DNA of 64,000 bases from the NCBI GenBank assembly GCA_944323695.1, contig CALUTI010000001.1:124001-188000 (forward strand), read 5' to 3'. The notes beneath the pieces are model-generated. The model saw nothing but the letters and a program-made list of their open reading frames with translations. It had not been told where the DNA came from and searched no databases. The position numbers were made by a program, and so were the translations under genes. This DNA comes from Candidatus Gastranaerophilales bacterium. GTDB taxonomy: Bacteria; Cyanobacteriota; Vampirovibrionia; Gastranaerophilales; Gastranaerophilaceae. Shown here piece by piece: positions 61 through 56,531 of the stretch; position 1 is the stretch's first letter, and each line of letters begins with the position of its first letter.

Positions 61-185
61 CTTGCTATTTTTTTCGCCAACTTCCGGTATATTCTCACCA
101 ACAACCCGTGTGTCGGGTCCAGCGGCACGCTGGCTACTTAGGAGAGACGCCCCACCCCGTTTTTGATTTTTTTCATCATTTCCAT
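1..185 (-). pseudogene. 5' end of a G-tract prepilin-type leader ORF, out of frame, cut by the window edge
   Basis: An ATG at 183-185 (minus strand) follows a good Shine-Dalgarno sequence (aaaggag, 8 nt spacer). The ORF reads MEMMKKIKNGVGRLS and stops at 138. Adding one base in the GGGGTGGGG tract opens the alternative frame, which continues as NGVGASLLSS and stays open to position 1. The tract and the bases after it match the start of the prepilin gene at 31655 (G-run, then gcgtctc and ctaagtag). No hydrophobic prepilin segment is seen before the edge; the frame runs into the REP-like repeat. It could be a decayed prepilin gene or a switchable one whose body lies outside the window. Confidence 0.45.
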
Positions 186-17473: not shown

Positions 17474-18762
17474 TTAAAATATTTTAATAGGTTCTTTAAC
17501 TATCATCCTGCAATCTTTTGCCATATCCTTGCACAAATCATACTGAACCTTATCTCCGCAATACTTTTCGCTCTTTATATAGCCTATTGCGCATGCGGCA
17601 CTCCTAAAATTTGCATCTGTCATCAACAATTTCACTTCTCTTTTTTGTCCGCTATAAGTATCATATAATACATTTACGCTAAGGTGATCTTTTGTATTTC
17701 CGCCTGAAGGACTCTCCTCGTTATAGGCAGGCAATACTTTTCCGGAACCTAACAAATAATACGGAAATACATCTTCCCATAATTCCCCCGCTCCTGAATC
17801 ACCATTTACGTCTATATATATAACAAATCCCGTTCTGTCATCATCCGATTCCGCGTCAGATAATTCTTCTATATATTCGTAATCTGAGCCGATATATAAT
17901 TTTAATCCGTTTAAAAGAACAATATTTGGTGTAACCTCTGCGAAATTTCCCGATGTTGCAGCACTTTGAATAATATCGTCGGATATAGTGCAATCATATG
18001 ACTCTATATTGTACCAATCTTTAATTTTTTCGCATATAGAGGGCGGTAATGATAATAGACAAATAACTTGACGCAGTTCTGCATTCCAATCACCATGTGT
18101 TGCCCCATCAATCGAAAAAACATATTCAATAGCATTACTACTCTTAAAAAATTGCTCCGGTGTCTGATTAAAAGGAATAACTGGCGGCATGTAAGCTATC
18201 AACGCAGAATTAAGTATTATTTCATGTAAATACAACTTATTGGAGTTAGAAAGATTAAAACCAGCCTTACTTATTTTTTCGTCATCCAATACATAGTCCC
18301 CAGATGTTTTATCAAACTTATAAAAATATGAAAAAAAATCGTAACTAAAATCCGCCTTAGACGGCAAATTTTTATTACAAGCTTTGAATGCCCCCAGCCA
18401 GTAATCCGGGTATCCAGAATAATTGCAAATATCCCCAAAACATTCTTCATGTGCAATCGGTTCAGGATAAAAAGCTTTACTATAACGTCTGCCATTTACT
18501 TCTATAGCATAATCCTCAGGAAGTGTAGCTTTAACTTCAGGCAATACATTCGCGGATATATCCTTCATTAACGAATAACCCATATAATAGGAGTCGTAAT
18601 CTACCTTCTTCATCTTGCTAATTGTTATCGGCAAGGTTACAATTACTACAATCGTTATTACTATTAATGTTATAGTTAACTCGCCCAGCGTAAACCCTTG
18701 TCTTATGCGGTTAAGAGTGTCGCCCCCCCCCGCTCCTTCCTTACCAAATCAAGCTTTTCCAT
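17474..18762 (-). CDS. Type IV prepilin-like protein, frame broken at a G9 tract
   Basis: A strong SD (ggaggg) precedes ATG 18760-18762. Nine codons later a run of nine G (18723-18731) puts the reading frame out by one base and the zero frame stops after 19 codons. One extra G joins it to a long frame that reads GFTLGELTITLIVITIVVIV, a textbook prepilin cleavage site (Gly before Phe, Glu at +5) with hydrophobic helix. The body (about 400 aa, open from 18634 with a TTG as first candidate start) is soluble, Tyr/Asp-rich and contains IYIDVNGDSGAGE. Nine bp downstream of dgt. Either phase-variable, recoded by slippage, a pseudogene, or an assembly error. Confidence 0.75.
18723..18731 (-). repeat. 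G9 homopolymer controlling a prepilin frame
   Basis: Nine consecutive G on the coding (minus) strand in codons 11-14 of the prepilin ORF. Ten would restore the frame. Such tracts slip during replication and are the usual basis of phase variation. Confidence 0.75.
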
Positions 18763-30089: not shown

Positions 30090-30678
30090 AGAAGTCTACA
30101 AAGATTATATGGATGCTTTTTTACGTCAAAATGCAGTCGTCAATTTGATTTCTAAAAATGACGAAAAATTTTTGTGGGAAAAACATGTTGTTGACAGCCT
30201 TTCTATAGAAAAATTCTTTGAGAAATATTACCCACTATTGGAAGAGGGTATAAAGCTGCTCGATATCGGAACAGGCGGCGGATTCCCCGCTGTTCCGATT
30301 GCATTAACATACCCAGGGCTGAATGTAACTGCTCTTGACAGCATAAGAAAAAAAATTAACGCAATAGAAAATATTAAACAGGAATTAAACATCAAAAACC
30401 TCACAACAGTTTGCGACAGGGCGGAAAATATTAAAGAAAAATTTGATATCATAACCTCACGCGCAGTAGCTTCACTTGATAAAATTTGCAGCTATGCGCT
30501 GCCCTTACTTAAAAAAGACGGATACTTTGTAGCATACAAATCACGCAAAACTCCTGAAGAACTGGATTCTGCCGAAAAAGTGCTGAAAAAATATAATTCA
30601 AAGGTAATTGATATTATTGAATATCAATTACCTCTTGAAGAAAATTATACACGGAATTTAATTATTATAAAAAATTAA
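30079..30678 (+). CDS. rsmG: 16S rRNA (guanine-527-N7)-methyltransferase
   Basis: A 199-aa SAM-dependent methyltransferase of the RsmG (GidB) family. It shows the N-terminal NAVVNLIS segment, motif I LLDIGTGGGFPAVPIAL near 60, the Asp after beta-2 (TALDS) and SRAVASLDKI near 130. I place the start at TTG 30079, preceded by agaaagg; a longer form from TTG 30055 is also open but has no SD. It overlaps the 3' end of the P-loop/TPR gene and, by 4 bp, the convergent prepilin gene. Confidence 0.93.
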   Translation: MKNKEVYKDYMDAFLRQNAVVNLISKNDEKFLWEKHVVDSLSIEKFFEKYYPLLEEGIKLLDIGTGGGFPAVPIALTYPGLNVTALDSIRKKINAIENIKQELNIKNLTTVCDRAENIKEKFDIITSRAVASLDKICSYALPLLKKDGYFVAYKSRKTPEELDSAEKVLKKYNSKVIDIIEYQLPLEENYTRNLIIIKN

Positions 30679-31655
30679 TTGCCTGCTTCTTTACAGCTAT
30701 GAGGTCCATCCCAGGCAAGATCTTCACGGCAGTGGAGATAATCCATATTTTTGTTATATATTACCCAGGCTGCACATCCCATACCGGCAGTTCTTTCTGT
30801 CGCTGCCGGATCACAACCGTAACCTTCAAAGGTATAAGAAGTAGCACCTTTCATCCCTGCAGGGAAAAGACCTTTGTCATTAAACACGAAATAAAATCTG
30901 TTTTTGCCTAATACTGCATCTTTTCCAAAAGGCAATATCACAAAAATTGATCCGCTCTTGCTATATGCATCATAATTTCCCATATGAACATAGGTACCGT
31001 CACTTAGGAAAAAACGTTCTTCCGGAGATGAATCGCTTGTATTACTGCCGGTAAGTACGCCCCCAGCGTCTTCAGTTTTCAGACCGCCTATCGTATACCA
31101 TGCTCCCGGAAAACAAACTTTTCCGGTTTCGCATGTTTTCGCAACTTTTAAATACTTTTTCAAACGTGAAACAATTAAAATATTTGCTGAATGGTCATAA
31201 ATAGGCTTGTCCTCGTCATTTACTTCGCCGGTGACAGTATTTTTTAATCCCCATGTGCTCAATTGCCCGTATTCAGCCTGCGTCATTTGATAGGCCTGGG
31301 AAAATGTAGAATAGACCTTTGTAAGACTTGACACAATCTGCTTTTCTTGATATTTAGTAATAAGTGTCGGTATTGTCATTGCCGCTACCACACCAATTAT
31401 CCCCAAGGTTATCAATACCTCAGCTAAAGTAAAGGCCAATTTACATTTACTTAACCCCATGCCTATTTGAGAATTGTAGTTTTTCTGTTTTACACGTTTT
31501 TTTATTAAACTATAATTTGCCATAATTGTATTATAGTTTGCATTTTTAAAAATGTCAAACCCTTCAAATACGGTTACAATACCGCTAAAACCCTTGTAAA
31601 ATCTACTTAGAGGAGACGCCCCCCCCCCGTTTCCAGAACTTTCAAATCTTATCAT
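30675..31655 (-). CDS. Type IV prepilin-like protein with long leader and G10 tract
   Basis: From ATG 31653-31655 (SD aaaggagg) the ORF reads MIRFESSGNGGGASPLSRFY and continues in frame through 69 leader residues to FTLAEVLITLGIIGVVAAM, a class III signal with Glu at +5 (Ala in place of the usual Gly before Phe). The pseudopilin body ends in a Cys-containing domain. An internal in-frame ATG at 31521-31523 has a consensus promoter 6 nt upstream and would give a 282-aa form with an ordinary short leader. Both starts are plausible. Its end overlaps rsmG by 4 bp. Function: minor pilin or pseudopilin of a type II/IV system. Confidence 0.85.
   Translation of the reverse strand: MIRFESSGNGGGASPLSRFYKGFSGIVTVFEGFDIFKNANYNTIMANYSLIKKRVKQKNYNSQIGMGLSKCKLAFTLAEVLITLGIIGVVAAMTIPTLITKYQEKQIVSSLTKVYSTFSQAYQMTQAEYGQLSTWGLKNTVTGEVNDEDKPIYDHSANILIVSRLKKYLKVAKTCETGKVCFPGAWYTIGGLKTEDAGGVLTGSNTSDSSPEERFFLSDGTYVHMGNYDAYSKSGSIFVILPFGKDAVLGKNRFYFVFNDKGLFPAGMKGATSYTFEGYGCDPAATERTAGMGCAAWVIYNKNMDYLHCREDLAWDGPHSCKEAGN
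31530..31558 (-). promoter_or_regulatory. Consensus promoter inside the prepilin leader
   Basis: On the minus strand TTGACA (31553-31558), 17-bp spacer, TATAAT (31530-31535), 6 nt, then in-frame ATG at 31521-31523. Both boxes are perfect, so a leaderless mRNA for the short prepilin form is likely. Confidence 0.75.
31619..31628 (-). repeat. G10 homopolymer in the prepilin leader
   Basis: Ten consecutive G on the coding strand, codons 10-13 of the long leader ORF. Here the tract keeps the prepilin in frame, in contrast to the G9 tract at 18723. Confidence 0.75.
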
Positions 31656-31687
31656 AACAACCTCCTTTTTCGGTCTTATTATAACAT

Positions 31688-55593: not shown

Positions 55594-55622
55594 TTGACAG
55601 GCATAGTTAAAAATTTTATAAT
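55594..55622 (+). promoter_or_regulatory. Perfect consensus promoter of the LysR gene
   Basis: TTGACA 55594-55599, 17-bp spacer, TATAAT 55617-55622, then 6 nt and the ATG at 55629. The predicted start base is the A of the start codon. Confidence 0.85.
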
Positions 55623-55628
55623 AAAAAT

Positions 55629-56531
55629 ATGGAATTACGTGTACTGAAATACTTTTTAACAGTTGCAAGAGAGGGCAGTATAACAGGAGCAGCAAACTCA
55701 CTTCACCTTACACAGCCTACACTTTCAAGACAATTAATGGATCTTGAAAAAGAACTCGGGCATAAATTATTAATCAGAGGAAAATCTAATATAACGCTGA
55801 CTTCTGAAGGGATAATGCTTAAGAAGCGTGCCGAAGAAATAATTGATATGGTTGAAAAAACAGAAGCTGAATTTGAAGCAATTAATGAAATAATTGGCGG
55901 AGATATCTATATTGGATGCGGCGAAACAGATTCAATGCGGCATATTGCAGAAATCATGAAAGAACTGCAATCCGAATATCCCGACATAAAATTTCATATC
56001 CATAGCGGCAATGCAGAAGACGTAACCGAAAAATTGGATAAAGGCTTACTGGATTTTGGTGTATTAATTCAACCAATTGATCTGTCAAAATATGATTATA
56101 TTTCATTGCCGGACAAAGATGTTTGGGGTGTAATTATGCGTAAAGACAGCCCATTAGCAGCTAAAAAGGTTATTAAACTGGATGATTTAATAGGTGTGCC
56201 TATTATAGCATCACGCCAAATGTCAAAAAAATATTCAGCTCAAAGCGGATTTTTAGACTGGTTTGGGGGAGAATTCGACAAATTAAATATTACTGCCACC
56301 TACAACCTTGTTTATAACGCGGCAATAATGGTGGAAGCAGGTCTTGGTTATGCAGTCACTCTTGACAAATTAATCAATACAAGCAGAAATAACAATTTGG
56401 TATTCAGACCACTTGAGCCCAAACTTGAATCCGGTCTTGATATTGTTTGGAAAAAGTATCAGGTATTTTCACCTGCAGCAAAACTATTTTTGGACAAACT
56501 GCAAAATAAATTCGGACAAAATAATTTGTGA
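55629..56531 (+). CDS. LysR family transcriptional regulator
   Basis: A 300-aa regulator with an N-terminal winged HTH (residues 1-60; FLTVAREGSITGAANSLHLT and QPTLSRQLMDLE) and a LysR substrate-binding domain (about 90-295). It is divergent from the hydrolase gene at 55511, its likely target. The mRNA is probably leaderless (TATAAT-N6-ATG). Confidence 0.95.
   Translation: MELRVLKYFLTVAREGSITGAANSLHLTQPTLSRQLMDLEKELGHKLLIRGKSNITLTSEGIMLKKRAEEIIDMVEKTEAEFEAINEIIGGDIYIGCGETDSMRHIAEIMKELQSEYPDIKFHIHSGNAEDVTEKLDKGLLDFGVLIQPIDLSKYDYISLPDKDVWGVIMRKDSPLAAKKVIKLDDLIGVPIIASRQMSKKYSAQSGFLDWFGGEFDKLNITATYNLVYNAAIMVEAGLGYAVTLDKLINTSRNNNLVFRPLEPKLESGLDIVWKKYQVFSPAAKLFLDKLQNKFGQNNL

Follow-up and report, generated by a model that had tools for sequence, protein, structure and literature searches.

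Homopolymeric tracts in Campylobacter jejuni sit in unrelated surface and glycan genes. These G or C tracts, 7–13 bases long, lie within reading frames and turn genes ON or OFF by frameshift; G7–G13 is the known hypermutable range, with approximately 1e-3 changes per division at G9–G10 (PMC8224891). The contingency loci of C. jejuni amount to 12–29 genes per strain (PMC8224891; PMC4965091). In Neisseria, the pilus gene pilC is switched by a G/C tract within its frame, and poly-G tracts have a modal length of 9, with approximately 15–19 tracts per genome in the main species. The Neisseria pilin itself is varied by recombination between pilE and pilS (PMC5953494). In Moraxella, inversion provides an ON/OFF choice between pilins, and the 2025 review that describes it raises the question of why genomes rich in phase-variable loci appear to be confined to pathogens (PMC11868660). 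The bacterium studied here belongs to the Gastranaerophilales, and a termite-gut relative was reported to possess pilA, pilB, pilC, pilT, and pilD (PMC5877343). The genome described below very probably carries SSR phase variation (contingency loci) of its whole tract-bearing pilin repertoire, approximately 60 prepilins, through a modular leader.

A G10 tract at the start of a prepilin gene

The window is the whole stretch of DNA that was analyzed, 64 kb in length. An earlier note had described in it a Shine-Dalgarno (SD) sequence, an ATG at 31655, and ten G's in frame with a prepilin, and this description was borne out on the minus strand (Table 1). The open reading frame of this gene (the G10 gene) extends from 31655 to a stop at 30675, encodes 326 aa, and includes AFTLAEVLITLGIIGVVAAMT and the prepilin processing motif KLAFTLAEVLITLGIIGVVAAMT. 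Its leader before the tract consists of nine codons, MIRFESSGN. The gene product has the prepilin N-terminal motif, FTLxE followed by a hydrophobic helix, with a TIGR02532 score of 17.6 bits (cutoff 16.3). PF07963 was above cutoff in the genome scan and reached 20.8 bits, compared with a cutoff of 21.2, in the protein scan. The model of the pilin (mean pLDDT 73.5) contains a helix at residues 3–55, followed by strands. Foldseek with this model gave no match at E under 0.9, the pilin FimA of D. nodosus appeared among unrelated rows (Z 4.1, rmsd 4.3, 121 aligned), and fold searches with the model revealed no clear structural relative.

G8 was found in five overlapping matches in the window, compared with 0.31 expected, and 0 of 100 shuffles reached five; therefore, the tracts of the window are not the product of chance. 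GGG represents only 9.8% of the Gly codons in the window, so coding alone would not keep a pure GGG run.

Two further leaders of this kind lie in the window. The tract had been said to occupy the same place in the G10 gene and in a second prepilin gene with G9 (the G9 gene), which is approximately correct: the leader of the G9 gene differs, and its tract starts slightly later, at nt 32 of the ORF instead of nt 28. The claim of three SD-headed leaders with a G-rich tract also holds for the presence of all three, but the tract of the copy at 1–185 is interrupted and not a long pure run. The prepilin of this copy lies to the left of the window, and its downstream frame is open. This copy looks locked OFF and is probably no longer a switch.

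Table 1. Coordinates of the leader and prepilin features in the window
Feature	Position	Strand	Basis or remark
TATAAT upstream of the SD of the G10 gene	31678-31683	-	sequence
Shine-Dalgarno AAAGGAGG of the leader start, G10 gene	31661-31668	-	sequence
ATG, tract leader start of the G10 gene	31653-31655	-	sequence and open frame
G10 tract, codons 10-13 (GGG GGG GGG GCG)	31619-31628	-	in frame with prepilin (ON)
Post-tract motif CGTCTCCTCTAAGTAG, repeated	31603-31618	-	both wrong frames hit stops in it
Open-frame spacer, tract to prepilin motif	31434-31618	-	61 codons
TTGACA-N17-TATAAT-N6-ATG in the spacer	31521-31558	-	ATG in pilin frame; might start a leaderless mRNA whatever the tract length
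Predicted mature pilin from FTLAEV, plus stop	30675-31433	-	252 aa
G9 tract, second prepilin, leader family B (ATG 18760-18762)	18723-18731	-	needs G10; OFF in this assembly
Prepilin frame (GFTLGELTI) 3' of the G9 tract	17474-18722	-	open; out of frame with its own start
Third leader copy, same leader family as the G10 gene (ATG 183-185)	134-185	-	post-tract motif present
Interrupted tract GGGGTGGGG of the third copy	150-158	-	one base short

Tract leaders and prepilins across the genome

The 1.73 Mb genome contains 72 tracts of eight or more G's, and the sequence around all 72 was retrieved and examined. It also contains 86 prepilin N-termini (Pfam N_methyl), 60 of which have a G or C tract of 8–12 just past the start (within 700 bp upstream of the prepilin motif). 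Prepilins account for 60 of the 72 tracts, compared with approximately 2.5 expected by position. The remaining 12 comprise four family A leaders truncated at contig ends, three leader remnants, and five tracts on contig C5.

The leaders fall into families. Family A has approximately 48 copies of one SD-ATG-27 nt-tract leader, and the ATG is 27 nt before the tract in nearly all of them. Family B has three copies, including the G9 gene of the window. Family C is formed by seven prepilins with poly-C on the sense strand, and family D reads GGAGGTT...ATG, 36–37 nt ahead of the tract. The 20-mer GGGGCGTCTCCTCTAAGTAG matches 37 places in the genome when up to 3 mismatches are allowed (0 for the control), and an SD-ATG was found approximately 25–30 nt before the motif in 30 of the 30 copies read. 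A mobile element bearing the motif was considered as the main reading and dropped, because all of these copies follow an SD-ATG.

It had been suggested that a slip-switch module is joined to different prepilin genes. This arrangement holds genome-wide: approximately 48 copies share the leader, whereas the mature bodies have a median identity of 83% over the first 30 positions and approximately 20% beyond. Switching itself is the inferred part.

The five tracts on contig C5 (L069–L073, at C5:8860, 12708, 51421, 52750, and 59312) are G9–G10, and four of them lie in or next to genes like those of sugar or glycan enzymes. The likenesses are to a glycosyltransferase, an epimerase, a CMP-sugar synthetase fused to a KdsB-like part, and an acyltransferase. 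These tracts represent a candidate second set of phase-variable surface genes.

Reading frames and the stops of the wrong frames

The anatomy, frames, stops, repertoire, and distribution of these genes, and the length differences between paralogues and orthologues, can be read directly from the sequence. At 51 poly-G loci, the stretch of 6–180 codons between the tract and the pilin motif is free of stops in one frame. Summed over these loci, the pilin frame has 0 stops in 3,295 codons, the other two frames have 214 and 391, and in 51 of 51 each of the wrong frames reaches a stop within 7 codons. The sequence that supplies these stops varies (CTCTAAGTAG, CTCTCCTAGGTAG, and others). Tract length thus separates an intact protein from an early stop at every one of the 51 loci, as in a contingency locus. 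In addition, the homopolymer within the reading frame is of hypermutable length, G8–G12 in this genome (within 41 nt after the start) and 7–13 overall. The poly-C prepilins obey the same frame rule. The 51 loci were counted on possessing an open frame (few complete tract leaders are without one) and, as paralogues of shared ancestry, are not fully independent; the agreement among families A, B, C, and D and other genera is a stronger point than the locus counts.

The same frames bear on the idea that G9 is a sequencing or assembly error or that the OFF genes are pseudogenes. The data are metagenome assemblies, in which several contigs end at or near leaders. However, the tract is the sole frame error and the pilin frames 3' of OFF tracts are intact, which does not fit pseudogene decay. 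The stops in both wrong frames are systematic, and related assemblies with the same pattern bear NODE/k127 contig names, typical of short-read assemblers, making sequencing error unlikely. Artefact and decay together are regarded as extremely improbable.

ON and OFF states

Among the 51 loci of this genome, 9 are in frame (the G10 gene included), 38 are one base short (mostly G9), and 4 are one base long. The 59 loci of other genomes are divided into 10 in frame, 38 short, and 11 long, and the poly-C set contains six C9 (OFF) and one C10 (ON). In-frame tracts (20 of 117) are rarer than one third (binomial p ~7e-5, with loci treated as independent). Published slippage rates of C. jejuni predict approximately 43% G9 and 24% G10 (PMC8224891). 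Family A is 80% G9 and more uniform than these rates predict, indicating either a preference for OFF or a different slippage bias.

As an alternative to DNA switching, recoding at the tract, through ribosomal -1 frameshifting or slippage of RNA polymerase, could yield some in-frame product at every locus irrespective of tract length. This would agree with the 38 of 51 loci that are exactly one base short and with the very uniform G9 of family A. However, errors occur in both signs, with tracts one base too long in 4 loci of this genome and 11 of other genomes, and these, together with lengths of 7–13, do not fit one fixed, programmed ribosomal shift. Some loci are also in frame already. RNA polymerase slippage in both directions would be compatible with errors of both signs, but recoding as a whole is considered very unlikely.

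Replication slippage of the tract remains the preferred reading, and comparisons of related genes bear on it. The G10 gene is ON, whereas its closest relatives in two sister species (74–75% identity) are G9 and OFF. One other locus, with 95–98% identity across three genomes, has G9 in all three; this constancy, like the uniformity of family A, counts against the reading. A search for near-identical paralogues differing in tract length yielded a single pair, 90% identical, with G10 and G9. Two further prepilins were observed, one whose leader looks as if the tract was lost in frame (L290, C3:44857) and one with G7 in frame (L291, C4:124167). Both look like stabilised ON derivatives.

Spacers, repeats, and a putative internal start

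Tract-free prepilins mostly have ordinary short leaders (MTKKAFTLAEV, MKIRAFTLAEV, MNKKAFTLAEV), whereas tract prepilins have long leaders in most cases. The spacers of the latter hold interspersed repeats in either orientation, and the pilin frame is always open. Twenty-three of the 28 genome copies of the repeat CCTCCGGCTCCGCTATGGTCTC are within 180 bp of a tract (e.g., L041, L045, L059, and L068), and the remaining five lie close to other genes or between them. This repeat looks palindromic.

Eight tract prepilins, the G10 gene among them, carry TTGACA-N17-TATAAT-N6-ATG within their spacers (one has TATAAC), and this ATG shares the frame of the pilin. The exact pattern has 11 sites in the genome (L265–L275), 7 of which are in such spacers (control 0), and these sites would give leaderless mRNAs. 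At these eight loci, the pilin might be produced from a leaderless spacer transcript, independently of the tract. A consensus match, however, is no proof of a promoter, and the pattern is confined to a subset of loci. Moreover, the spacer above the internal ATG is still stop-free in the pilin frame back to the tract, although an internal start would not require this. A tract-independent start is therefore judged unlikely. A second perfect site of this pattern was observed in the window at 55594–55631.

Distribution in the family and beyond

Of the 146 family species scanned, 59 have the SD-ATG-N18-36-G8 layout in their genomes; they represent 21 of the 41 genera, and the controls were near zero. 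The earlier note had named two outcomes that would speak against its proposal, namely, related genomes without the tract on other prepilins and an invariant length of exactly ten; neither was found, since the layout is shared and the lengths vary. Leaders look alike within one genome and differ between genera. One design recurs in several leader families of this genome, which are unrelated to one another, and in many leaders of other genera. A scan of the phylum found no such layout in the one genome of a second family of the order or in the five genomes of a third family of the class, and photosynthetic cyanobacteria had matches at background level only.

In one relative (G068), at least seven contigs (C3, C15, C31, C44, C45, C69, and C76) end within approximately 50 bp of a tract. 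Reads of mixed tract length could account for these ends, but so could the repetition of the leaders alone. In leaders of genus g1 (e.g., L042, L157, and L138), the SD is complementary to the post-tract sequence (GGAGGTTAA/TTAACCTCC, AGGAGTT/AACTCCT, and AGGAGA/TCTCCT), possibly forming an RBS hairpin. Such pairing was dropped as a general mechanism because it is mostly absent from other genera.

Proposed mechanism

In the proposed mechanism, the leader would comprise an SD, an ATG, approximately nine codons, a pure G tract of approximately 9–10, and then stops for both wrong frames, and an open-frame spacer would fuse it to the prepilin. Replication slippage would alter the tract by one base. 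With 10 (or 7 or 13) G's, the ribosome would continue into the pilin (ON), and with other lengths it would meet a stop a few codons on (OFF). With most loci OFF, each cell would display a few members of a large pilin repertoire, switched on at random and differing from cell to cell. Prepilin peptidase should remove the long leader, since it lies ahead of the FTLAEV processing site, and the leader sequence may drift or acquire repeats while the frame remains open. Judging from peptidase action, all sequence ahead of the FTLAEV cleavage site would be lost and thereby free to vary, and the spacers and mature bodies show the pattern to be expected in that case. How often the tracts slip, which loci are expressed, how the leader is processed, and what purpose the tract prepilins serve are points that we infer.

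A broader scheme of modular pilin display stands at an even balance. Here, a hypermutable start cassette and exchangeable repeat cassettes of either orientation would be combined with a constant prepilin N-terminus before dozens of divergent bodies. The result would be an uncommonly large collection of pilins, each with its own switch, and the cleaved leader would serve as a tolerated landing site.

Comparison with known systems

In the open-access papers searched, neither phase variation nor a pilin with such a tract turned up for Gastranaerophilales. This uncultured gut lineage, a neighbour of the cyanobacteria, has more candidate loci than the cited Campylobacter and Neisseria counts, and they are aimed at pilins. 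This makes it testable how these gut bacteria vary attachment or evade phages and immunity. It is also a warning for annotation, as dozens of pilin genes will be called frameshifted or mis-started.

Rickettsia palindromic elements are interspersed repeats inserted in frame in genes, with the frame kept open. The repeat CCTCCGGCTCCGCTATGGTCTC differs in that 23 of 28 copies adjoin a tract, in the part of the leader that is expected to be cleaved. In Moraxella, pilins are likewise turned ON and OFF, but by DNA inversion and with few pilins, whereas tract slippage is proposed here. The Neisseria pilC is not a pilin, and it is recombination, not a tract on each of dozens of pilins, that varies the pilin there. 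The G/C tracts of 7–13 in frame resemble those of C. jejuni; unlike in that species, shared leaders place 60 of 72 of them on prepilins. The switching principle has been familiar from Campylobacter and Neisseria for a long time (PMC8224891, PMC4965091, PMC5953494), while the clade, the target (prepilins directly), the scale, and the modular cleavable leader appear to be new.
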